A stretch of 64,000 bases of DNA from the NCBI GenBank assembly GCA_903852755.1, contig CAINRS010000162.1:1-64000 (forward strand), in the 5' to 3' direction. A program made the position numbers and the translations under genes. This DNA comes from an uncultured Actinomycetes bacterium (GTDB lineage Bacteria > Actinomycetota > Acidimicrobiia > Acidimicrobiales > Microtrichaceae). Numbering within the stretch: position 1 is the stretch's first letter; every line of letters begins with the position of its first letter. Below the pieces are notes generated by a model. It was not told where the DNA came from, made no database searches, and worked only from the letters and a program-made list of their open reading frames with translations. Shown here in pieces: positions 11,227 through 62,181 of this stretch.

Positions 11227-12494
11227 GCTGTCTGGGTGCGGACGAGGTCGATCAGGTCTCCCAGGGCGACGTTCACGTCGACCAGGTGGAGTCCCCACTG
11301 CGGGGTGATCCGGCCGCCGAGGTCGGCCGGCCGCTGGTCGCCCTTCAGCCGGGTGCTGCGGACCTGCAGCCAGTCGAAGCGTTCGTTCGAAGTGCACTCG
11401 GCGTCCCACCACCCCTCGAGCCGGACGAACGGGGTGGTCGTCCCCGGTCGCACGGTGTTCGGGTAGTACGAGTCGAGGGGCCCGGAGCCGCCTGCGAGGG
11501 ACGCAGGGTTGGTGCACAGGACGCGACCCGTCCCGGTGCGGGGTCGGCCGAACAGGCTGTCGTCCGGTGGTGGAGCGGCAGCGTCGAAGGTGGCGTAGCT
11601 CACCACGCACCCGGTCTGGGTCGGTTCGCGGCACGGCGGGACGTTGGCGAATGCGTCGGGTGATCCGGGTGCCGGGACGCCGCTGCCGATGAGCATCGCC
11701 GAGACCATCCGGTCGCGCACCGCCGGGACGTCGTCGATCTGCTCGGCGATCAACCGTCGGAGGTGACCCGCCCCCTGTGAGTGGCCCACCAGCACGAACC
11801 GGCGGTCGGCGCCGTCGGTGCGCTGGTACTGCTGCCACGCATCGAGCACGTCGGCGTAGGCCACCTCGAACGGCACGGGTGCCCCGGGCAGGGTGGTGGT
11901 CGTCGAACCGCTCAGGGCGGACAGCCCGCGGAGCGGGACCTGCCGGTAGGACGGGGCGAAGGTGCGGCACACCTCGCCGAAGCGGGCGAACTGGTTGGCG
12001 ACGACGTTCGCCTCCTCCGGTCCGGGTGTCCGGTCGGCGTTCGGTGGGGGGTCACCCGAGATCGTCGGGTAGACGTAGAAGCAGTCGACCGGTGGGTCGG
12101 CCGCAGGAGTGAACGGCTCCTCCGTCGTGGTGCCGTCGGCCCGCACGAGGGTGGCGTCGAGGTCGACGTCGCAGAGGTCGTCGCCCAGGTCGGGCCGACA
12201 CAACCAGTTGGCCGGGTCGTCGTAGGCGCTCACCGGCCCCGGCCCCGGCGGGTCACCTGCGCCGTCGACCGGGCCGCCCGACGTCTCGTTGGTCGTGGTA
12301 GGGGACGTGGCAGGAGTCGTGGCAGGGGCACCCGAGGTGTCCTCGCCGCTGCAGGCGGCGAGCAGCGCCACAGTCCCGAACGTCGCCACTGCCGCCGCCA
12401 CGACCCCTGCCACGACCGTCGCCACGGCCCGACCCCGGCGGGGCCCGGTGGTCGGGGCGGGACGAGGCCGTTCGGGTCGGTGCGGGGCGGTCAC
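11211..12494 (-). CDS. DUF3089 lipoprotein, alpha/beta-hydrolase-like
   Basis: 427 residues: a basic, proline-rich start, a membrane segment and the lipobox LLAAC, then an acidic/Thr linker. The mature domain matches the DUF3089 pattern, with [29 protein letters not shown] and the nucleophile elbow [11 protein letters not shown] (Ser in GHSQG), giving a probable secreted lysophospholipase/esterase-like enzyme; catalytic activity is inferred from the fold only. The GTG start follows TAGCCT by six bases. It is inserted on the opposite strand between mutB (16-base tail overlap) and meaB, an arrangement that separates the mutase from its chaperone gene. Confidence 0.85.
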
Positions 12495-50966: not shown

Positions 50967-51002
50967 GCGTCGGGCCCACCTGCTCGGGCGGGCGACGAGG
51001 AG

Positions 51003-51086
<84 letters not shown>

Positions 51087-51461: not shown

Positions 51462-51569
51462 GGGGTCTCCGTCTGGTCGGGAGTCGTGGTCGGGGAGCAG
51501 ACCTCGATGCTACCGGTGGTCGCGGAGGGCTCCCGTGCGGGGCGGAGGCCCGCTGTCCACCGCCGTCGC

Positions 51570-51575
51570 TATCGT
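51570..51575 (+). promoter_or_regulatory. -10 box (TATCGT) of the fhaA operon
   Basis: TATCGT, seven bases before the ATG; probable leaderless start of the fhaA-to-pbpA transcript. Confidence 0.55.
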
Positions 51576-51582
51576 GTCCCGC

Positions 51583-52242
51583 ATGCCCGCTCAGGGGTTC
51601 GAGGCCCGTCTGGAACGACTGGTCGAGACAACGTTCGGCCGACTCTTCAGGTCGGGTCTGCAACCGGCCGAGTTCGGCCGGAAGCTGCGCCGTGCCATGG
51701 ACGACCACAAGGTGGTCAGCGCCGCCGGTCGGGTGGTCGTGGCCAACCGGTTCGACTTCAGCGTGTCGACGGCCGACGCCGAGTCGCTCGAGGGGATGGA
51801 GGGCACGCTGCGACGTGAGCTCGCGGAGCTCGCCCGGGGCCACGCCCGGGACGAGGGCTACGCCTTCGTGGGACCGGTCGAGGTGACGCTCGACACCGAC
51901 GCAGGGGTGCCCCGTGGCACGATCGACCTCGAGGCCCGGATCGTCGAGGGCCCGGGTGCCCTCCCTCCCGGTTCGCTGCTCCTGCCCACCGGCGACCGGG
52001 TGCCGCTCGGGGAGTACGAGGTGACCCTCGGCCGGAACGACGACTGCACCGTGATCCTGGCCGACCCGAACGTGAGCCGGCAGCACGCCGTGGTGCGTCC
52101 GGATGGAGAGGGGTACGTGGTCGTCGACCGGGGCTCCACCAACGGGACCAAGGTCAACGGGGCCCGGATCACCGAGCACCACCTGGTTCCGGGGGACGTC
52201 GTGCAGCTCGGGAACACCGTCGTCCGCTTCGAGGCGTCGTAG
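51583..52242 (+). CDS. fhaA: FHA-domain protein FhaA (DUF3662 + FHA)
   Basis: 219 residues. The N-terminal DUF3662 domain (LERLVETTFGRLFRSGLQPAEFGRKLRRAMDD) and a C-terminal FHA domain with VTLGRNDDCTVILADPNVSRQHAVV (phospho-Thr-binding GR, S and H) and DRGSTNGTKVNG. The actinobacterial FhaA proteins are read by PknB and bind phosphorylated MviN in peptidoglycan control. The linker between the domains is very short here, giving a protein less than half the mycobacterial length. ATG start seven bases after TATCGT (51570-51575). Confidence 0.93.
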   Translation: MPAQGFEARLERLVETTFGRLFRSGLQPAEFGRKLRRAMDDHKVVSAAGRVVVANRFDFSVSTADAESLEGMEGTLRRELAELARGHARDEGYAFVGPVEVTLDTDAGVPRGTIDLEARIVEGPGALPPGSLLLPTGDRVPLGEYEVTLGRNDDCTVILADPNVSRQHAVVRPDGEGYVVVDRGSTNGTKVNGARITEHHLVPGDVVQLGNTVVRFEAS

Positions 52243-52250
52243 GAGCCGAC

Positions 52251-52769
52251 GTGCCCGAGCAGCTCCTCACCGTCCTCAAGCTGTGCCTGTTGGCGCTGGT
52301 CTACCTGTTCTTCCTCCGTGTCCTGCGGGCGGTGTGGGCCGAGGTGGGTCCACTGCGTGCCGCTGCCGGCCAGCCGGCACGACCGGCGCCGGGCGCCGCA
52401 GTGCCGGAGCCGGCGACCGGGGGTCGCAAGGGGAGGTCCGGCCGGGCCGCACGGTCACGTTCGTCGCGTCGGCAACCCTCCGTGCCCTCACGGCTCGTCA
52501 CCGTCGAGCCCGCCGCGAGGGCGGGTACCGAGGCGGCGCTCGGTCCGGAGCTGACCGTCGGCCGTGCTGCCGGATGCTCGCTCGTGTTCGACGAGCGGTT
52601 CGTCTCGCAGGTCCACTGCCGGATCTTCGTGCGGGACGGGTCGGTGTTCGTCGAGGACCTGGGCTCCACCAACGGCACCTGGGTCAACGGTGCCCGGGTG
52701 GTGGGACAGATGCCGGCCCGGCTCGGTGACCGCATCCAGGTCGGCAACGTCGTGCTGGAGGTCCGGTGA
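52251..52769 (+). CDS. fhaB: Membrane-anchored FHA-domain protein FhaB
   Basis: 172 residues: an N-terminal membrane helix (LLTVLKLCLLALVYLFFL), a basic, Arg/Ser-rich linker, and an FHA domain with LTVGRAAGCSLVFDERFVSQVHCRI and LGSTNGTWVNG. In mycobacteria FhaB (FipA) connects PknA/B signalling with FtsZ and FtsQ. The GTG lies nine bases after the fhaA stop; its own stop overlaps the pstP start (GTGA). Confidence 0.93.
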   Translation: MPEQLLTVLKLCLLALVYLFFLRVLRAVWAEVGPLRAAAGQPARPAPGAAVPEPATGGRKGRSGRAARSRSSRRQPSVPSRLVTVEPAARAGTEAALGPELTVGRAAGCSLVFDERFVSQVHCRIFVRDGSVFVEDLGSTNGTWVNGARVVGQMPARLGDRIQVGNVVLEVR

Positions 52770-54178
52770 CGATCCTCCAGGCCGGATCGGCCACCGTCGT
52801 CGGGCAGGTGCGCGCCGCCAACGAGGACAGCCACCAGGTCGTGGACCGCCTGGCCGTCGTCGCAGACGGAATGGGCGGCCACCGAGGCGGTGCGGTCGCC
52901 TCGGCCACGGCGGTGCAGGCGATCACGAGCGGTTCCGTCGGCACGCTCGAGGAGCTCGTCGCCGCCGTCCAGCAGGCGAACCGCCAGGTGTTCGACGACG
53001 CCCGCGCGGACGCCGACCTGCGGGGCATGGGGACGACGGTGTGCCTGGTCGGACTCGTCGACCACGAGGGCACCGACGAGCTCGCCGTGCTCAACGTCGG
53101 CGACAGCCGCGTCTACCTGCTCGCCGCCGGGGTCATGGAGCAGCTCACCGAGGACCACTCGCTCGTCGAGACCCTGGTCCGGGAGGGCCGTCTGAGCCCC
53201 GAGGACGCGGAGGTCCATCCGCAGCGCAACGTGCTGACGCGTGCGCTCGGTGTCGACTCGGCGGTCGCGGTGGACGCGTGGCTGCTGCGGCCGGCCGACG
53301 GTGACCGGCTCCTGCTGTGCAGCGACGGACTGTTCAACGAGGTGGCCGAGGACCGGATCGCCGAGCTGCTCGCCGAACCCGACGCTCCGGAGCTCGTCGC
53401 CCGTCGACTGTGCGCCGAGGCCGACGCCGCCGGGGGCCGGGACAACATCACGGTCGTCGTCGTCGACGTCGCCGGTGCCGGCAACCCGCCGGCACCGCTC
53501 GTGGAGCGCTACCGCCGCTTCAGCACGCCGTCGGTCGACCTGTTCGGCGACGACGACGGGCCCCGCACCGACACGGTGCTCGCCGTCGTCGCCACCGGAT
53601 CTCCCCAGGGTGAGGCGGAGCCGGTGCCGGATCCTGCCGACCCGGCCCCCCCGGTGACCGCAGGACCCCCCGAGGAGCGCGGCGAGCGAGCTGCGGACGC
53701 ACCTGAGGTCGGCACGGAACCGTCGACCCCCGTCGTCACGGGGGACACCGACGGGGCGGACCGCCGGAGCTGGTGGCGGGTCGCCGCCTTCGCAGCGGCG
53801 CTGCTGGCGGTCGCCGGCCTGGCCGTGGCGGCTGTCACCTTCGTCGGCCGGCAGGGCTTCTTCCTGGACACCGAGGGCGACCGGGTGACGGTCTTCGCCG
53901 GGCAGGTCTGGGGCAGGGCGTGGTTCGCTCCGGAACCGGTCGCCCCGACGGGGTTCTCCCTGGACGACCTCACCGAGAACGGTCGGCGGGAGGTGGCCAC
54001 GCGGAAGCGCTTCAACGACGTGGCCGAGGCCCGGAACTTCGTGACCGGCAACACGACGACCACCACCACGACCACGACGACGACCACGACGAGTACGACG
54101 ACCGTCCCGCCGCCTGTCGTGCCCCCGCCGCCTGTCGTGCCCGTTCCACCGGCCGTCCCTCCTCCCCCCGGACCCTGA
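52766..54178 (+). CDS. pstP: PP2C-type Ser/Thr phosphatase PstP
   Basis: 470 residues. Phosphatase motifs: VRAANEDSHQVVDRLAVVADGMGGHRGG (metal-binding Asp and Gly), GMGTTVCLVGL, NVGDSRVYLL, LLCSDGLFNEV and GGRDNITVVVV. After an acidic, Pro-rich linker there is a membrane helix (about 331-355), an external segment, and an unusual tail of uninterrupted Thr and then Pro/Val repeats (last 40 residues). It dephosphorylates PknB and its substrates. The Thr/Pro tail is outside the cell and could be O-glycosylated (inference). Confidence 0.93.
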   Translation: MTILQAGSATVVGQVRAANEDSHQVVDRLAVVADGMGGHRGGAVASATAVQAITSGSVGTLEELVAAVQQANRQVFDDARADADLRGMGTTVCLVGLVDHEGTDELAVLNVGDSRVYLLAAGVMEQLTEDHSLVETLVREGRLSPEDAEVHPQRNVLTRALGVDSAVAVDAWLLRPADGDRLLLCSDGLFNEVAEDRIAELLAEPDAPELVARRLCAEADAAGGRDNITVVVVDVAGAGNPPAPLVERYRRFSTPSVDLFGDDDGPRTDTVLAVVATGSPQGEAEPVPDPADPAPPVTAGPPEERGERAADAPEVGTEPSTPVVTGDTDGADRRSWWRVAAFAAALLAVAGLAVAAVTFVGRQGFFLDTEGDRVTVFAGQVWGRAWFAPEPVAPTGFSLDDLTENGRREVATRKRFNDVAEARNFVTGNTTTTTTTTTTTTTSTTTVPPPVVPPPPVVPVPPAVPPPPGP

Positions 54179-54185
54179 GCGCGGC

Positions 54186-55535
54186 GTGACCGCTACGGCG
54201 CCTCCCTCTCCGGCCGCACCGCGGCCGAACGTCCAGGCCATCGGCACCCGCCGTCGGACCACCGAACTGGGGCTGCTCGTCCTGTCCGCGATCACCATCC
54301 TGGGCGCGTACGCGCTTGCCAGCCTGGGTCGCAACGCGTCGCTCCCCGCCGACATCCTCCCGTTCCTGGGCGTGATCCTGGTGCTGCTGATCGCCGCCCA
54401 CCTGGCGGTCCGGCGGTGGGCCCGGTGCTCCGACGCCCTCCTGCTCCCGATCGTGGCGCTGCTGAACGGCCTCGGCTTCGTCTTCATCGCCCGGCTCGAC
54501 GAGCAGCTCGCCGGGCTCCAGGCCACCTGGACCGGCGTGGGCATCGCGGCGTTCATCGTGACGCTCGTGGTCGTCCGCGACGTCCGGGTGCTCCAGCGGT
54601 ACCGCTACACCTTCGGGCTCCTCGGCGTGGTGCTGCTGCTGCTCCCGCTCCTGCCCGTGTTCGGCCAGAACATCAATGGCGCCCGGATCTGGGTGGCGTT
54701 CGGGCCGGTGAGCTTCCAGCCCGGTGAGTTCGCCAAGATCGCGCTCGCCATCTTCTTCGCCGGGTACCTGGTCGAGCGACGGGAGATCCTCGGGGTGGCC
54801 ACGTTCCGGGTCGGTCCCTTCACGACGCCGGACCCCCGGCAGTTCGCCCCCGTGCTGGTGGCCTGGGGCATCTCGCTGCTCGTCGTCATCTTCCAGCGTG
54901 ACCTGGGCTCGGCGCTCCTGTTCTTCCTGCTGTTCCTGGTGACCCTGTGGGTGGCGACGGGGCGGGTGGTGTACGTGGTGATCGGCTTCCTGCTGTTCGG
55001 TGTGGGGGCGTTCGTCAGCTGGACCCAGTTCTCACACGTGCAGGACCGGGTGTCGATCTGGCTGGACCCGTGGGCGGACCCGTCCGGCTCGGGCTACCAG
55101 GTGATCCAGGCGGCGTACGCCCTGGCCTGGGGTGGCACGTCCGGGGTGGGACCGGGTCTCGGGATCGTCGACCGGATCCCCTTCGACGAGACCGACTTCA
55201 TCGTGGCGATCATCGGAGAGGAGCTCGGCCTGCTCGGCACCACGGCCGTGCTCGTGGCGTTCCTGTTGCTGGCCGGGAGCGGGCTGCGCATCGCCAAGGG
55301 CGCCGGCGCGACGTTCGGCACGCTGCTGGCCGTCGGGCTCACCTCGCTCATCGCCTTCCAGGCGTTCATCATCATGGCGGGGGTGACCCGGCTCCTGCCG
55401 CTGACCGGGGTGACCCTGCCGTTCGTCTCCTACGGCGGTTCCTCGCTGGTGTCGAACTACGTCCTCATCGCGCTGCTGCTGCGCATCTCGGACCAGTCGG
55501 TCCGCCGGGCGCCCGACCCGTTGGCCGCGCTGTGA
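54186..55535 (+). CDS. rodA: SEDS peptidoglycan polymerase RodA
   Basis: 449 residues, ten membrane helices. The SEDS signature regions are present: FGQNINGARIWVAFGPVSFQPGEFAKIALAIF (with the catalytic-region Arg and Lys), VVIFQRDLGSALLFFLLFLV, WLDPWADPSGSGYQVIQ, FDETDFIVAIIGEELG and LPLTGVTLPFVSYGGSS. Together with the adjacent class B PBP it polymerises glycan strands for elongation. Seven bases follow the pstP stop; the end overlaps the pbpA start. Confidence 0.95.
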   Translation: MTATAPPSPAAPRPNVQAIGTRRRTTELGLLVLSAITILGAYALASLGRNASLPADILPFLGVILVLLIAAHLAVRRWARCSDALLLPIVALLNGLGFVFIARLDEQLAGLQATWTGVGIAAFIVTLVVVRDVRVLQRYRYTFGLLGVVLLLLPLLPVFGQNINGARIWVAFGPVSFQPGEFAKIALAIFFAGYLVERREILGVATFRVGPFTTPDPRQFAPVLVAWGISLLVVIFQRDLGSALLFFLLFLVTLWVATGRVVYVVIGFLLFGVGAFVSWTQFSHVQDRVSIWLDPWADPSGSGYQVIQAAYALAWGGTSGVGPGLGIVDRIPFDETDFIVAIIGEELGLLGTTAVLVAFLLLAGSGLRIAKGAGATFGTLLAVGLTSLIAFQAFIIMAGVTRLLPLTGVTLPFVSYGGSSLVSNYVLIALLLRISDQSVRRAPDPLAAL

Positions 55536-57034
55536 GGCGGCAGATCGCGCTGCTCGGCGCCGCCATCCTGATCTGCTACGTCGCGCTCTTCGTGAAGTTC
55601 AACCAGATCCAGGTGTTCCAGGCGGATGCGCTCAACGAGCGCACCGACAACACCCGGCAGCTGCAACGGGACTTCAACGAGCCCCGCGGGTCGATCATCA
55701 CCGCCGACGGGGCACTCGCCGCGTTCTCCGAGGAGCGACGGGCCACGCTCCGCTACCAGCGCGTCTACCCCGAGGGCGACCTGCTCGCCGCCGTCACGGG
55801 CTACTACTCCTTCGGGCTCGGGTCCTCCGGTGTCGAGCGGAGCTACAACGACGAGCTCGCCGGCCGGACCACCGCGCTCAAGCTGCGGGAGCTGACCGGC
55901 TTCTTCACCGACACCTCGAGTGAGGGCGACGTGGTGCTCACCGTCCGACGGGACCTGCAGGCGGTCGCTCGCGACGCGCTCGGTGAGCGGCAGGGTGCGG
56001 TCGTCGCGCTGGACCCGCGTGACGGCTCGGTGCTCGCCCTCTGGTCGTGGCCGTCGTTCGATCCCAACCAGCTGTCGAGCAACGACACCGCACAGGCGAC
56101 GGCGGTCAAGGAGTTCCTCGACGCCGTGCCGCAGAAGCCCCTCCTGATCCGCGCCTACCAGGAGAACTACTTCCCCGGTTCGACGTTCAAGGTCGTGACG
56201 GCGGCCGCCGGTCTGGAGAGCCGGACGGTGACGCCGGCCGCACCCGACTACCCGGTCGTCACCGAGTACACGCCGCCGCTCACCCGCCAGGGGATCTCCA
56301 ACTTCGGCGGTGCGCCCTGCGGGGGGACGCTGTTCGTGATCCTGGCCCGGTCGTGCAACAGCTCGTTCGCGCAGATGGCGGTCGAGCAGACCGGTCCGGA
56401 GCCGATGGTGGCCGCCGCCGAGCGCGTCGGCTTCAACGACGCCCCGCCGATCGACCTGCCCGATCCGGCCCGGTCGGTGTACCCGACCGACTTCGGTGAC
56501 GTCGTCGAGCGACCCCCGGGCCGGGCGCCCGTCACCTCGGATGCGCCGAAGCTCGCACAGACCGCCATCGGCCAGAACGACGTGCGGGCCACCCCGCTGC
56601 AGATGGCGCTCGTCGCGGCGGGAGTGGCCGCCGGAGGTGAGGTCCGGGCCCCCCACGTGATGGGCGAGATCAGGGCGCGTGACGGCTCCGTGGTCGAGCG
56701 GTACGAGCCCGAGGTCTGGCGGCGGGCGTTCAGCCCGGCCGACGCGGCGACGCTCCGCCAGGCGATGGTCGGCGTCGTCGCCGACGGCACCGCCCGGAAC
56801 ATGGCGATCCCGGGGTTCGAGGTCGGTGCCAAGACCGGCACCGCCCAGCTGGGCACGACACCACCCCGGTCGCACGGCTGGATGATCGCCTTCGGTGGCC
56901 GGCCGGGGCAGGAGCCCACGGTGGCGGTGGCGGTCATCGTCGAGAACCTCTCGGGTGCGACCGCCGAGACCGGCGGCTCGACCGCCGGTCCCGTGGCACG
57001 CGAGGTCCTCGCTGCTGCGCTGGGGGCGGGGTGA
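55532..57034 (+). CDS. pbpA: Class B penicillin-binding protein PbpA
   Basis: 500 residues: an N-terminal membrane helix (QIALLGAAILICYVALFV), a dimerisation region (FNEPRGSIITADG), and the transpeptidase domain with PGSTFK (SxxK), SCNSS (SxN) and VGAKTGTAQLG (KTG). It is the transpeptidase partner of RodA. The GTG overlaps the rodA stop (GTGA), as in other actinobacterial kinase clusters. Confidence 0.94.
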   Translation: MRRQIALLGAAILICYVALFVKFNQIQVFQADALNERTDNTRQLQRDFNEPRGSIITADGALAAFSEERRATLRYQRVYPEGDLLAAVTGYYSFGLGSSGVERSYNDELAGRTTALKLRELTGFFTDTSSEGDVVLTVRRDLQAVARDALGERQGAVVALDPRDGSVLALWSWPSFDPNQLSSNDTAQATAVKEFLDAVPQKPLLIRAYQENYFPGSTFKVVTAAAGLESRTVTPAAPDYPVVTEYTPPLTRQGISNFGGAPCGGTLFVILARSCNSSFAQMAVEQTGPEPMVAAAERVGFNDAPPIDLPDPARSVYPTDFGDVVERPPGRAPVTSDAPKLAQTAIGQNDVRATPLQMALVAAGVAAGGEVRAPHVMGEIRARDGSVVERYEPEVWRRAFSPADAATLRQAMVGVVADGTARNMAIPGFEVGAKTGTAQLGTTPPRSHGWMIAFGGRPGQEPTVAVAVIVENLSGATAETGGSTAGPVAREVLAAALGAG

Positions 57035-57124: not shown

Positions 57125-59059
57125 ATGGCTGACGACGACCTCCGAGTGCTCGGTGATCGCTACGAGATCCACCGACTCATCGCCCGCGGCGGTATGGCGC
57201 AGGTGTACCTGGCCCGAGACCGCCAGCTCGACCGACCCGTCGCCGTCAAGGAGCTCGTGCCGGAGTTCGCGGCCGACCCCGCCTTCGTCGAGCGGTTCCG
57301 CCGCGAGGCGCAGTCCGCCGCCCGGCTGACGCACCCCAACATCGTCTCGGTCTACGACTGGGGGACCCAGGACGGGACCTACTTCATCGTCATGGAGTAC
57401 GTCGACGGACCGTCGCTGTCGCAACTGATCCGCCGTGACGGTGCGCTGCACCCCCGCCGGGCTGCGGAGATCGCCTCCGAGGTCGCCGCCGCCCTGGGGT
57501 TCGCCCACTCTCAGGACGTCGTCCACCGGGACGTCAAGCCGGGCAACGTGCTGCTCACCTCGAGCGGCCAGGCGAAGGTGGCCGACTTCGGGATCGCCCG
57601 GGCCATGTCGTCCGCGGACGGTGAGCTCACCCAGACCGGATCGGTCATGGGAACCGCCACCTACTTCTCGCCCGAGCAGGCCCAGGGGCTCCCGGTCGAC
57701 GCCCGCGCGGATCTGTACTCGCTCGGCGTGGTGCTCTACGAGATGGTCACCGGCCGACCGCCGTTCAGTGGGGACACGCCGCTCGCGATCGCCTACAAGC
57801 ACGTCCAGGACGAGCCGCCCCGCCCGTCGACCGTCTCACCCGGGGTGCCCATCGCCCTCGAGGCCGTCATCGTCAAGCTGCTGTCCAAGCAGCCCGCCGA
57901 CCGGTACGCCGACGCCAACGCACTCCGGGCCGACCTCGACCGCTACCTGGCAGGGCAGACCACACTCGCCGAGGAGCAGCTGGCCGCGGTCGGGGCAGCG
58001 GCTGTGGCCGCCTCGGCCGCTGCGCCAGCCGGCGCGACGACGGTGCAGCCGGTCGTCGAGCCCGTCGCCGGCGACGACTTCGGCGACGAGGAACCGAAGT
58101 CGCGCACCGGGCTGTTCATCGGTGTCCTCGTCGTGCTGCTCGCCCTGCTCGCCGGACTCCTGTTCTGGTTCGCCCGCGGCCTCGACGCCGCCGACGTCGA
58201 GGTCCCCGCCACGATCGGGCTCACCCGCGTCGAGGCCGAGACGCTGCTCCGGAACGAGGGGTTCACCGTCGAGGTCACCGAGCAGGCCAACCCGAGCATC
58301 GAGGCCGGCCGGGTGATCTCGCAGGACCCGGCGCCCCGGACGAAGGCACCCGACGGTTCCAAGGTGACGATCGTCGTCTCGCAGGGTCCGGCACAGGTGC
58401 CGGTGCCCGAGGTCGTCGGCCGCACGCAGGCCGAGGGCGAGTTCATCCTGGCGCTCGCAGGTCTGCGGGCGAAGGTCATCTCGATCGAGGATCCGAACAC
58501 CGAGCCCGGCAGGATCATCTCGTCCAACCCGGCGGCGGGCGTGCCGGTCTCCAAGGACTCCGAGGTCGAACTGCGGGTCTCCAAGGGTCCGGGCGAGGAA
58601 CTGGTGCCCAACGTCGCCGGCCAGTCCCTCTCGGCGGCCCAGGCCACGCTGCAGGCGGCCGGCTTCAGGATCGGTGGCCCCGACGAGGAACCGAGTGACG
58701 AGGTCGCCAAGGGCAAGGTCATCCGGACCGACCCCCCGGTCGGCTCCTCGATCGAGAAGGGCTCGACCGTGACGGTGATCGTCTCCTCCGGTGTGGCCCA
58801 GGTGCAGGTGCCCGGCGTGGTCGGCGACTCCCAGTCCCAGGCCGAGCGGGCGCTCACCGATGCGGGATTCACCGTCGAGGTCGTTAACCAGGAACTGTCT
58901 CCCGGTGACTCGAACGTGGGGAAGGTCATGTCGCAGGAGCCTGCGAGCGGCGCCCGGGCCGACAAGGGGTCGAGGGTCCGGATCACCGTGGGTGTGGCCG
59001 AGGCCACCACGACCACGACCACCACCGAGCCGCCGACCAGTTCGACGTCGTCTCCCTGA
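57125..59059 (+). CDS. pknB: Ser/Thr protein kinase with four PASTA domains
   Basis: 644 residues. Kinase domain 1-275: glycine loop LIARGGMAQVYLA, catalytic Lys42 in VAVKEL, HRDVKPGN (Asp136), DFG (Asp154) and an activation loop with Thr169 and Thr171 matching the two autophosphorylated Thr of mycobacterial PknB. Basic juxtamembrane segment, membrane helix at about 330-352, then four PASTA repeats (358 to 620) and a Thr/Ser tail. The extracellular PASTA part binds muropeptides/lipid II. The start is ATG 57125, nine bases after TACGCT with GGAG inside that gap. No separate pknA is present; two PASTA-only proteins follow. Confidence 0.94.
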   Translation: MADDDLRVLGDRYEIHRLIARGGMAQVYLARDRQLDRPVAVKELVPEFAADPAFVERFRREAQSAARLTHPNIVSVYDWGTQDGTYFIVMEYVDGPSLSQLIRRDGALHPRRAAEIASEVAAALGFAHSQDVVHRDVKPGNVLLTSSGQAKVADFGIARAMSSADGELTQTGSVMGTATYFSPEQAQGLPVDARADLYSLGVVLYEMVTGRPPFSGDTPLAIAYKHVQDEPPRPSTVSPGVPIALEAVIVKLLSKQPADRYADANALRADLDRYLAGQTTLAEEQLAAVGAAAVAASAAAPAGATTVQPVVEPVAGDDFGDEEPKSRTGLFIGVLVVLLALLAGLLFWFARGLDAADVEVPATIGLTRVEAETLLRNEGFTVEVTEQANPSIEAGRVISQDPAPRTKAPDGSKVTIVVSQGPAQVPVPEVVGRTQAEGEFILALAGLRAKVISIEDPNTEPGRIISSNPAAGVPVSKDSEVELRVSKGPGEELVPNVAGQSLSAAQATLQAAGFRIGGPDEEPSDEVAKGKVIRTDPPVGSSIEKGSTVTVIVSSGVAQVQVPGVVGDSQSQAERALTDAGFTVEVVNQELSPGDSNVGKVMSQEPASGARADKGSRVRITVGVAEATTTTTTTEPPTSSTSSP

Positions 59060-59069
59060 GGGGGACGGA

Positions 59070-60044
59070 GTGCGCCGGATCAAGGGTGCTGCGCCGGTCG
59101 CCGCGGCGTTGGCGTGCGCTGCTGCTCTGGTGCTCCTCCTCGGGTTCGCCCCCACGCTCAACCCGGTCGACCTGGTGCTCGGCCGGGGCAGGTCGGTCGT
59201 CGTCGGTGACCTGACCGGTCAGCCCCTCCCCGGGGTCCGGGCCGAGCTCGAGGCGTCCGGTGTGACGGTCCGGACGGCCTCGGCGTTCAGCCTGAGCGTC
59301 CCGAGGGGCGCAGTGCTGGCCCAGGACCCGCTACCCGGTGCACAGGTGGACCCGGGTGGGACCGTGACCCTCACGGTGAGCCGGGGAGCGGTGCGGGTCG
59401 TGCTCGAGGACCTGGTGGGTGACCAGGTCCTCGAGGCCCGTCGTGGCCTCGACGAGGCCGGGGTGGTCGTCGAGATCGAGGAACGTCCCGACGACGTGGC
59501 TCCGGCCGGGGTCGTGCTCGCGCAGGACCCGGGACCGGGCCTCGAGGTGCGCGGCGACGGGATCGTCCGACTGGTCGTGTCGGCCGGACCCCCGCCCCGC
59601 CCCGTCCCCGACGTCGCCGGGCGTTCCGTCCCCGTCGCGTCGTTCACGCTCGGGGCCTTCGGGCTCGAGGTCACCGACGTCGAGGGCACCCTCGCGACCG
59701 ACCTGCCGCCCGGCGCCGTGGTCCGGACCGATCCGCCGGCGGGCACGACGGTGGCCAGGGGTGCTGCGGTCCGCGTGGTGGTCTCGGGCGACGCCCCGCC
59801 GACGGCCGTGCCCGCAGTGCTCGGACAGGCCGCCGACGAGGCGGCCGAACGCATCCGGTCGGCCGGATTCCAGGCCAACGTCGTCACGGCCACACCGGAC
59901 GAGGTCGCCCTGGTGGGACTCGCTGCGGCGCGGGACGGTCGTCCGGTGCCGGAGGTCCGGCCGGGTCAGGTCCTGTTCCAGACGCCGGAGGGGGGCGTCG
60001 AGCGCCGGCCCGCCTCCGTCGTGACCCTGGTGGCGGCACCGTGA
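59070..60044 (+). CDS. Stand-alone PASTA-domain membrane protein A
   Basis: 324 residues. A single N-terminal membrane helix (about 6-28, VAAALACAAALVLLLGFAP) places four PASTA-like repeats outside the cell; units start near GDLTGQPLPGVRAELEASG, VVLEDLVGDQVLEARRGL, VPDVAGRSVPVASFTLGA and AVPAVLGQAADEAAERI. There is no kinase or enzymatic domain. It follows pknB by ten bases with a purine-rich ribosome site. It probably binds muropeptides and assists PknB, or competes with it (inference). Confidence 0.85.
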   Translation: MRRIKGAAPVAAALACAAALVLLLGFAPTLNPVDLVLGRGRSVVVGDLTGQPLPGVRAELEASGVTVRTASAFSLSVPRGAVLAQDPLPGAQVDPGGTVTLTVSRGAVRVVLEDLVGDQVLEARRGLDEAGVVVEIEERPDDVAPAGVVLAQDPGPGLEVRGDGIVRLVVSAGPPPRPVPDVAGRSVPVASFTLGAFGLEVTDVEGTLATDLPPGAVVRTDPPAGTTVARGAAVRVVVSGDAPPTAVPAVLGQAADEAAERIRSAGFQANVVTATPDEVALVGLAAARDGRPVPEVRPGQVLFQTPEGGVERRPASVVTLVAAP

Positions 60045-61081
60045 CCGCCGTGGGGGTCCGTCCGCCGCCTCCGCCTCCGGTGCGGCCGACCGGTCCCGAA
60101 CGGTCCCGGCCCAGGGTGACCGAGGTCGGACCCCCCGAGCAGGTGGACCTGGAGCCCCACCCGTGGGCCACCGTCCTCGTCGGGCTGACCGTCGTGGTCC
60201 TGATCGGCCTCACGTTGCTCGGTGTCCGCACTGTCCTGTCGAACAACGCTCCACCGACGCGCGCCGAGCGCGTGGTCCTGCCGTCCCTCACGGGACTGTC
60301 GGTCGGCGACGTGCAGCGACGACTCGACGGCCTCGGGGTCGAGGCGGCGATCGAGTTCACGCCGAACTCGATCGTGCCGGTCGGCGTCGTGTTCTCCCAG
60401 GTGCCCCGGGCTGGTGCCAAGGTGGAACTCGGGTCCGAGGTGGTCGTCGTGGCGAGTGACGGTCCGGCGGGGCAGGTCGTCCCCGAGGTGGTCGGTGTGC
60501 AGGAGCCCGCCGCAGCGGCGATCCTCGGCCGGCTGGGTCTGCGGGTGGAACGCCAGCAGCTGCCCGACGACACCGTCCGACCGGGTGAGGTGCTCGCCAC
60601 CGTCCCCGCTGCCGGGTCGCCGATCCCCTCGGACGGGTCGGTCGTGCTGCGGGTGTCATCGGGCCCGGCACCGCGGACCGTCCCGGACGTGGTGGGCCAG
60701 CCGGCCGGGCCGGGCATGTCGGCGATCGGCCGGGCGGGACTCGGCCTCGGGGACGTCACCGAGCAGGTGCGCGACGGTGTCGAGCCCGGGGTGCTGCTCC
60801 GGGTCGAGCCGGGAGCGGGCGCGGCGCTGCCTCCGGGGACCCCGGTCGACGTCGTCGTGAGCGGTCGCCGGGACTCGGCGAGCGTGCCCTCGCTGGTCGG
60901 ACTCACGCGTCGCGCCGCCGAGGAGGTCGCCGGGGACGCCGTCACGCTGCGGATCCGCACCCGGGAGCTCCCCGCAGGTGATGTGCTGGTGGGTCGTGTG
61001 GTCGACCAGAGCCTGCCGGTCGGCACGCCGATCGAGGCCGGGACGCCGCTCGAGCTGCTGGTCGGTGTCGCAGCGTCGTGA
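60041..61081 (+). CDS. Stand-alone PASTA-domain membrane protein B
   Basis: 346 residues: a Pro/Arg-rich cytosolic segment (1-43), a membrane helix (about 44-66, VLVGLTVVVLIGLTLLG) and four PASTA repeats beginning VLPSLTGLSVGDVQRRL, VVPEVVGVQEPAAAAIL, TVPDVVGQPAGPGMSAI and SVPSLVGLTRRAAEEV. The GTG overlaps the previous stop (GTGA), so the two PASTA proteins are made together. The proline-rich N-terminus contains Thr/Ser sites that a neighbouring kinase could modify (inference). Confidence 0.85.
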   Translation: MTAVGVRPPPPPPVRPTGPERSRPRVTEVGPPEQVDLEPHPWATVLVGLTVVVLIGLTLLGVRTVLSNNAPPTRAERVVLPSLTGLSVGDVQRRLDGLGVEAAIEFTPNSIVPVGVVFSQVPRAGAKVELGSEVVVVASDGPAGQVVPEVVGVQEPAAAAILGRLGLRVERQQLPDDTVRPGEVLATVPAAGSPIPSDGSVVLRVSSGPAPRTVPDVVGQPAGPGMSAIGRAGLGLGDVTEQVRDGVEPGVLLRVEPGAGAALPPGTPVDVVVSGRRDSASVPSLVGLTRRAAEEVAGDAVTLRIRTRELPAGDVLVGRVVDQSLPVGTPIEAGTPLELLVGVAAS

Positions 61082-61139: not shown

Positions 61140-61721
61140 TCAACCGGTGCAGGCGGTGAGGAAGTTCCGTACCAGGTCGTGACCAGCGTCGGTGAGGACC
61201 GACTCCGGGTGGAACTGCACACCCTCGACGGGGAGGGACCGGTGGCGCAGCCCCATGACCAGGCCGTCATCGGTCCAGGCGCTGATCTCGAGGCACGCCG
61301 GCACCGAGGAGCGCTCGACGACCAGCGAGTGGTAGCGGGTGGCCTCGAGCGGGTTCGGGAGTCCGGCGAAGAGACCGAGACCGTCGTGGTGGACCGCGGA
61401 GGTCTTCCCGTGGACCACCTGGGGCGCCCGGACCACCGAGCCGCCGTAGACCTCACCGATGCACTGGTGGCCCAGGCAGACACCGAACACCGGTACCCGT
61501 TCACCCCAGGTGCTGATGAGCTCGTTCGACCGGCCGGCGTCGGCGGGGGCGCCGGGTCCGGGGCTGATCAGGATGCCGTCGGGCCGCATGCGGTCGACGT
61601 CGGCCAGGGTGATCGCGTCGTCGCGGTGGACGATCGGTTCGGCGCCGAGCTCACCGAGGTACTGGACCAGGTTGTAGACGAACGAGTCGTAGTTGTCGAC
61701 GACGAGCACCCGGGCGGCCAC
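61140..61721 (-). CDS. pabA: Glutamine amidotransferase of anthranilate/aminodeoxychorismate synthase
   Basis: 193-residue class I GATase. VDNYDSFVYNLVQYLG at the N-terminus, ISPGPGAPADAG (oxyanion), VFGVCLGHQCIGEVYGG (nucleophile Cys) and GVQFHPESVLT (His-Glu). It supplies ammonia from glutamine to a PabB or TrpE partner, absent from the window. The same gene (trpG/pabA) sits beside pknB in Mycobacterium, here in the opposite orientation to the kinase operon. GTG start seven bases after TAGCCT. Confidence 0.92.
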   Translation of the reverse strand: MAARVLVVDNYDSFVYNLVQYLGELGAEPIVHRDDAITLADVDRMRPDGILISPGPGAPADAGRSNELISTWGERVPVFGVCLGHQCIGEVYGGSVVRAPQVVHGKTSAVHHDGLGLFAGLPNPLEATRYHSLVVERSSVPACLEISAWTDDGLVMGLRHRSLPVEGVQFHPESVLTDAGHDLVRNFLTACTG

Positions 61722-61824: not shown

Positions 61825-61830
61825 GCGGCC

Positions 61831-62181
61831 ATGGCGAAACCGGCGAAGCGGCGGATCGACCCCGAAGGGCAGGCCGCGACCGATGCAGGTCGGACCTCGA
61901 GCGGGGCGGACGCGTCGGGCCGTCAGCCGGTGACGAGTCGGCGGGTCACGCCCGCCAAGGGAGCCGCAGCCGGTCCGTCACGATCCGCTCGGGCGCACCG
62001 GCCGAGTCCGACCTGGGTTCCGGTCCTGATGTTCGCCCTGTGGGGCCTCGGGCTCCTGGTGATCATCTTGAACTACATGCAGATCCTTCCGGGCGCCACC
62101 GACGGCGGGAACGGCTGGTACCTGGTCGGCGGTCTGGGGTCGATCCTGGCCGGGATCATCGTCGCCACCCAGTACCGCTGA
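61831..62181 (+). CDS. crgA: Cell-division protein CrgA
   Basis: 116 residues. A basic, Ser/Arg-rich cytosolic half followed by two closely spaced membrane helices (PTWVPVLMFALWGLGLLVII, and NGWYLVGGLGSILAGIIVAT) with the short loop LNYMQILPG between them, the CrgA pattern. CrgA recruits septal PBPs and coordinates FtsZ in actinobacteria; it marks the far side of the pknB/trpG cluster in Mycobacterium too. ATG six bases after TACCAT. Confidence 0.92.
   Translation: MAKPAKRRIDPEGQAATDAGRTSSGADASGRQPVTSRRVTPAKGAAAGPSRSARAHRPSPTWVPVLMFALWGLGLLVIILNYMQILPGATDGGNGWYLVGGLGSILAGIIVATQYR

Follow-up and report, generated by a model that had tools for sequence, protein, structure and literature searches.

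Gene organization of the cluster

The DNA analysed here is a stretch of 64,000 nucleotides (the window) from contig CAINRS010000162.1, which belongs to the genome of an uncultured actinobacterium (3.16 Mb, 96.5% complete). An operon-like run of genes extends over 51.5-61.1 kb of the window, including fhaA, fhaB, pstP, rodA, pbpA, pknB, and two genes named PASTA-A and PASTA-B (A and B below). Compared with the cluster fhaA-fhaB-pstP-rodA-pbpA-(pknA)-pknB, every gene but pknA is present, in the same order. An initial annotation, made from the sequence alone, had described a PASTA kinase followed in tight operon arrangement by two kinase-less membrane proteins of four PASTA repeats each, giving twelve repeats from three genes, and had compared the cluster with the Mycobacterium order fhaA-fhaB-pstP-rodA-pbpA-pknA-pknB. 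This description was borne out. The upstream genes were found as expected by profile matches, the coordinates agree within a few codons, and all 12 repeats exceed the curated cut-off of PF03793. The spacing is indeed tight: the GTG start of A (59070) lies 10 nt after the pknB stop, with a GGGGACGGA-like ribosome-binding site ahead of it, and the start of B overlaps the end of A by 4 nt (GTGA).

The window PknB belongs to the Stk1/PknB PASTA kinases, scoring 659.6 bits against the NCBIfam equivalog NF033483 (cut-off 450). The Pkinase domain scores 178.9 bits, and the catalytic motifs (VAVK, HRDVKPGN, and DFG) are intact. By these features, PknB is a normal PASTA kinase with a complete catalytic apparatus. 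The juxtamembrane segment contains ATTVQP, and the motif ATT[VM]QP recurs across the family (Microthrixaceae-type Acidimicrobiia); it might be an autophosphorylation site for FHA docking. The number of PASTA repeats varies among the PknB orthologs of the order, and those at L112, L113, and L117 (genomes G034, G050, and G037, from other families) contain only two.

Pfam identified exactly four PASTA stretches in each of PknB, A, and B, with totals of 181.7, 140.4, and 109.8 bits for the three proteins. The weakest of the 12 repeats is repeat 4 of B (24.8 bits, cut-off 23.2), and repeat 4 of A bears an insertion. No Pkinase match was found in A or B, and Pfam recognizes nothing in them besides the four repeats. 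Their scores against NF033483 are 181.8 and 147.4 bits, below the cut-off, with the ectodomain part alone aligned. A and B are PASTA proteins, not PASTA kinases. The cytoplasmic part of A is nearly absent (about 7 residues), and a conserved motif (GF[SA]xTLNPxDxLxGRG) follows just after its transmembrane (TM) helix. B has a cytoplasmic tail of about 40 residues, which is variable in sequence and contains one conserved membrane-adjacent motif (R[VIL]TE[IV]GxxExVD), with its threonine kept in 17 of 20 family members. The AlphaFold model of B has one TM helix (residues 41-67) and four confident PASTA folds, with a mean predicted local distance difference test (pLDDT) score of 87.1. The best PDB match of this model is the nuclear magnetic resonance structure of the M. 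tuberculosis PknB PASTA ectodomain; the PASTA structures of PrkC and PBP2x are also matched, in keeping with membership of PF03793.

Table 1. Positions of the cluster genes, PASTA repeats, and neighbouring gene in the window (PBP, penicillin-binding protein; ORF, open reading frame)
Feature	Position	Strand	Basis or remark
FhaA core (FhaA_N + FHA domains)	51523..52242	+	Pfam; true start codon possibly further upstream
fhaB (FHA domain)	52251..52769	+	profile matches
pstP (PP2C phosphatase, NF033484)	52766..54178	+	profile matches
rodA/ftsW-type SEDS protein	54186..55535	+	profile matches
pbpA (class B PBP, PBP_dimer_2 + transpeptidase)	55532..57034	+	profile matches
pknB (intact Ser/Thr kinase, juxtamembrane segment, TM, four PASTA)	57125..59059	+	profile matches
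PknB PASTA repeats	58196-58384, 58397-58585, 58604-58789, 58802-58993	+	Pfam
PASTA-A (one TM, four PASTA, no kinase)	59070..60044	+	profile matches, translation
A PASTA repeats	59196-59381, 59397-59582, 59604-59786, 59805-60032	+	Pfam
PASTA-B (cytoplasmic tail, one TM, four PASTA, no kinase)	60041..61081	+	profile matches, model
B cytoplasmic motif RVTEVGPPEQVD	60113..60151 (approximate limits)	+	family alignment
B PASTA repeats	60272-60457, 60476-60661, 60677-60862, 60884-61066	+	Pfam
trpG/pabA-like glutamine amidotransferase (convergent, operon boundary)	61140..61721	-	ORF translation

The trpG/pabA-like neighbour of B agrees with the pknB-trpG neighbourhood of Mycobacterium. Past this gene lies a candidate for a small CrgA-like membrane protein (about 61826-62181, plus strand), and its position is presumably also similar to that in Mycobacterium. 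The window contains two tRNA-Leu genes less than 40 kb apart, both with the CAG anticodon (11314-11408, plus strand; 51002-51086, minus strand).

Distribution among related genomes

The pbpA-pknB locus was fetched from 60 relatives and annotated with hidden Markov models built from the window. Of these relatives, 33 are genomes of the family, and 24 of the 33 are evaluable because the contig extends past pknB. PASTA-only genes were found behind pknB in all 24. Both A and B are complete in 20 genomes (in one, G012, A carries a dead kinase domain), three are cut by the contig end, and one (G028) is frameshifted, which is the case throughout its cluster and in no other genome. Since the arrangement is conserved in every evaluable family member, it is not due to chance. 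An assembly or frameshift artefact was ruled out by the complete three-gene layout in 20 assemblies, including the single-contig G009. Outside the family, no PASTA-only gene follows pknB in any of 21 evaluable genomes, which represent other families of the order and have 1 kb or more of sequence beyond pknB. A search with the A profile also covered 120 genomes from the class and 149 from the phylum, and no further intact PASTA-only gene was found among the matches listed, by a criterion of open-frame length. Several genomes from other families and classes gave candidates of 300-550 residues (G173, G099, G275, G309, G263, G215, G265, and G197), which proved to be kinases, frameshifts, or fragments at contig edges; those of G263 and G173 end with the contig and may or may not be PASTA-only genes. 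The remaining PASTA loci of the source genome, at the contig ends of C103 and C121, fit pieces of one PASTA-PBP.

The initial annotation had suggested a search for the order pknB-PASTA-PASTA across Acidimicrobiia and had regarded sporadic occurrence as a possible refutation. The genes are not sporadic within the family, where they stay beside pknB, but the order does not extend to the other families sampled, and sporadic occurrence is accepted there. The nearest named records are freshwater metagenome-assembled genomes (MAGs) and 'Microthrixaceae bacterium' MAGs. Candidatus Neomicrothrix, a filamentous sludge genus, is assigned by NCBI to the same family, Microthrixaceae. The combination of pknB with two kinase-less PASTA genes is a family-wide trait of freshwater and activated-sludge actinobacteria.

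The lack of pknA had also been pointed out in that annotation. The gene is absent here, but the 60 related loci sampled all lack it as well, and the clusters of these genomes have a single live kinase. The absence is therefore the background state of the order and not a part of what is new. A relocated pknA was considered: of the source-genome kinases included in the kinase tree, none falls among the cluster PknBs, in an analysis that used no PknA model.

Origin of PASTA-A and PASTA-B

The most informative genome is G012. The protein at the place of A has 666 residues, comprising a kinase domain, a TM helix, and four PASTA repeats. It shares the private post-TM motif of A (FAHTLNPFAWLFGPG compared with GFSxTLNPxDxLLGRG), and the ectodomain tree groups it with A. 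The kinase domain is ruined: VAVK is changed to VLVR, HRDIKPGN to HGGLNPGV, and DFG to GFG, and the threonines of the activation loop have been lost. A kinase tree was reconstructed from 56 cluster PknBs and a further 22 kinase rows, including one duplicate of a cluster PknB; one family member (L083 of G004) sits under the 'out' label, which does not affect the result. The G012 pseudokinase was placed inside the cluster-PknB clade (support 100/99), apart from the 21 other kinases, and its best family-wide matches are cluster PknBs. This placement suggests that A is a tandem pknB copy that lost its kinase, which is well supported. B is probably a duplicate of the same kind, although no kinase remnant was found in any B.

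Several further observations bear on this origin. A and B are each monophyletic with support of 100 in two trees, and a sister relation between them has support of 97/92 in one tree. The repeat order is collinear with PknB: among 24 permutations, the observed order ranks first for PknB-B and second for PknB-A. G012 branches first in the B tree, where B is well resolved; this position fits a single later loss of the kinase of A, and the RodA plus PbpA tree is not decisive on this point. The residues R10, L33, and D76 of the PknB back-to-back dimer are all kept in the G012 pseudokinase; this is a mere hint, with a probability by chance of about 8% at about 43% identity. The predicted structure of the pseudokinase has a mean pLDDT of 61, too low for use. 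The live PknB of G012 (L105, first kinase ORF) has just two PASTA repeats, against four in each of the pseudokinase and B; a split of sensing and catalysis between the proteins is possible.

Similar arrangements were found elsewhere. In G193, from another actinobacterial class, a PASTA pseudokinase lies directly upstream of a live PASTA kinase (L209:1531-5467). It contains five PASTA repeats, with FLLRLL in place of the beta-3 lysine region and HGSVNSDY in place of HRD. G179 apparently has the same pair, in pieces over two contigs (L251 and L207), and the two genomes appear to represent a separate case of kinase/pseudokinase PASTA pairing. In G043 (L118/L215), the pknB position after pbpA is taken by a protein of TM plus four PASTA only, and the cluster is without a kinase; three kinase matches are located elsewhere in this genome, one of them with PASTA. 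G073 (L216) contains two live PASTA kinases side by side, both with catalytic motifs, and G174 has a similar tandem pair. The G073 duplication is probably independent of the one that would have given A and B (79/89 in the ectodomain tree). The PASTA repeats of the G073 pair are split 2+4.

The cases of G012, G193/G179, and G043, together with the family-wide loss, suggest that the kinase domain was probably lost from PASTA receptors several times. Kinase-less or kinase-dead PASTA co-receptors may perhaps be a recurrent actinobacterial invention, in which tandem pknB copies become obligatory hetero-oligomeric regulators of the live kinase. We hold this view with considerable reserve; if true, such co-receptors would be a bacterial counterpart of the eukaryotic receptor-pseudokinase pairs.

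Functional evidence and possible mechanism

The ratio of nonsynonymous to synonymous substitution rates (dN/dS) of A and B is mostly 0.05-0.4 between close species, above that of the PknB ectodomain. In the most diverged pair it reaches 0.6-0.7, where the PknB ectodomain itself has 0.5. A and B are clearly under purifying selection. The derivation of A and B from a kinase and their loss of its enzyme domain would fit non-functional relics of the duplication that persist by chance. However, they are intact in all 24 evaluable genomes except for contig-edge cuts and the frameshifted MAG, dN/dS is well below 1, and the overlap, the TM helix, the private motifs, and exactly four repeats are all conserved. 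This explanation is largely refuted and extremely improbable. In most family members, the start of B can overlap the stop of A by 4 or 8 nt, which suggests that A and B are translationally coupled and may be produced at a fixed ratio with PknB.

The following mechanism might be proposed. The pknB gene would have been tandemly duplicated in the family ancestor, and the copies would have retained the TM helix and four PASTA repeats while losing the kinase. With their amounts fixed relative to PknB by translational coupling, A and B would be its kinase-less neighbours in the membrane and serve as co-receptors and wall anchors. Possible binding partners of their ectodomains are the nascent-peptidoglycan ligand class of PknB (lipid II or muropeptides) or the RodA-PbpA machinery encoded nearby. 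Contacts of their TM and PASTA parts with PknB might set the number and place of assembled kinase domains, tuning the kinase. The tail motif of B, with its near-invariant threonine, may be phosphorylated by PknB, or the operon's FHA proteins may dock there. It is quite possible, if not yet probable, that A and B are fixed-ratio partners that hetero-oligomerize with PknB and/or tether PknB and the RodA-PbpA machinery to the nascent wall. Hetero-oligomerization and tuning, as suggested in the initial annotation, would fit the tandem pknB origin with one pseudokinase kept, the coupling, and the exact unit of TM plus four PASTA, which is also that of an artificial construct with effects on mycobacterial growth (PMC4632501). 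The changed behaviour of PknB on loss of ligand contact (PMC6428115), the kinase/pseudokinase PASTA pairs of other genomes, the family-wide conservation, and the purifying selection also speak for this reading. Coupled translation at a fixed ratio and the cytoplasmic motif of B favour partners rather than simple competitors.

Several points weigh against this partnership. The motif threonine of B is absent from G012, G016, and G014, and it does not match the consensus usual for PknB or FHA domains. Support for A and B as sisters came from one tree but not from another. The evolutionary rate of the A and B ectodomains is roughly 1.5-2 times that of the PknB ectodomain. Even the window PknB shows no obvious conservation of the ligand residues reported for mycobacteria (SK..NQ linker), and the lipid II residues (SK/NQ) give no useful mapping onto the linkers of the window proteins. 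The kinase-less locus of G043 suggests that ectodomains of TM plus four PASTA may work without a local PknB.

The same locus would favour a scaffold function, in which the pknB-derived A and B would act as a ruler or tether, positioning the RodA-PbpA synthase through contacts with peptidoglycan or PBPs, and would no longer signal with PknB. A has nearly no cytoplasmic part, and both genes share the operon with rodA and pbpA. Overexpression of an artificial TM-PASTA part of PknB in mycobacteria caused slower regrowth, elongated cells, and higher beta-lactam sensitivity, whereas shorter pieces had no pronounced effect (PMC4632501). Three explanations were offered for this effect, including PBP binding and direct peptidoglycan binding, and the binding of PBP2x by the StkP PASTA region was cited (PMC4632501). 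However, a cytoplasmic partner is indicated by the conserved cytoplasmic motif of B and by the pseudokinase that G012 retains, and the place directly after pknB was never lost within the family. A scaffold independent of the kinase is rather doubtful and ranks behind the partnership, though ahead of the decoy role considered next. The same construct resembles a dominant interfering form, and A and B have the same fold as PknB with collinear repeats, which would also be compatible with the decoy receptors proposed in the initial annotation, whose extra ectodomains would absorb muropeptide or lipid II and leave less ligand for PknB. Such a role is unlikely. The addition of muropeptides did not relieve the TM-PASTA effect (PMC4632501), and coupled translation at a fixed ratio gives little scope for graded titration. 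The cytoplasmic motif of B would be needless in a decoy. Moreover, the PknB ectodomain binds lipid II containing meso-diaminopimelic acid, and loss of this contact gives a mislocalised, over-activated kinase (PMC6428115); with lipid II as the ligand, two extra competitors would over-activate PknB and not dampen it. A pure decoy role is less likely than the partnership with PknB.

The control of PknB-type kinases by PASTA is disputed, with proposals of ligand-driven dimerization, ligand restraint, a wall ruler, and PBP contact. In this family, evolution ran a separation experiment: exactly the TM helix and four PASTA repeats were kept free-standing and, as the gene overlaps suggest, translated with the kinase across the whole family. 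These natural proteins make the question of an ectodomain without a kinase testable.

Comparison with known systems

The initial annotation knew of no described system with this layout, and none was found in the open-access literature searched. Natural, conserved PASTA receptors that lack a kinase, are translated together with PknB, and show a pseudokinase intermediate were likewise not found described there. A 2025 review covering families of bacterial pseudokinases (ActPs1-3, GLW, CP1, and others) names no PASTA-linked pseudokinase in its text (PMC12599244).

The window PknB is a normal member of the group of PknB (Mycobacterium), PrkC/Stk1, and StkP. A and B share the PASTA fold, the four-repeat ectodomain, the single TM helix, and the operon with this group and are paralogs of its sensor half, but they contain no kinase domain. 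The artificial TM-PASTA of M. tuberculosis PknB ('TMP') has the same membrane-anchored unit of TM plus four PASTA, and exerts a dominant effect on growth and cell wall (PMC4632501). However, TMP is a laboratory overexpression construct, whereas A and B are natural, conserved, and present as two per pknB. The MviN-FhaA-PknB module of M. tuberculosis also includes a dead kinase relative, as partner or scaffold, in the PknB cell-wall circuit (PMC12599244). The MviN pseudokinase belongs to the ActPs3 family and is located on a lipid II flippase (PMC12599244); in contrast, the dead kinase of G012 appears to stem from pknB duplication and is part of a PASTA receptor, and in most members the kinase has disappeared entirely. 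Tandem pknB genes were reported in Acidimicrobium ferrooxidans (PMC11044567), which resembles A and B in a tandem duplication at the same locus.

Each part of the arrangement is of a known kind; what was not found described is the conserved natural set of pknB and kinase-less PASTA genes with a visible pseudokinase intermediate. A and B would bring the logic of pseudokinases and receptor pairs into bacterial cell-wall signalling. In the eukaryotic parallels, CLV2/CORYNE and HER3, an inactive sensor tunes or completes a live receptor kinase; the likeness is one of analogy, as the sensors are not homologous.

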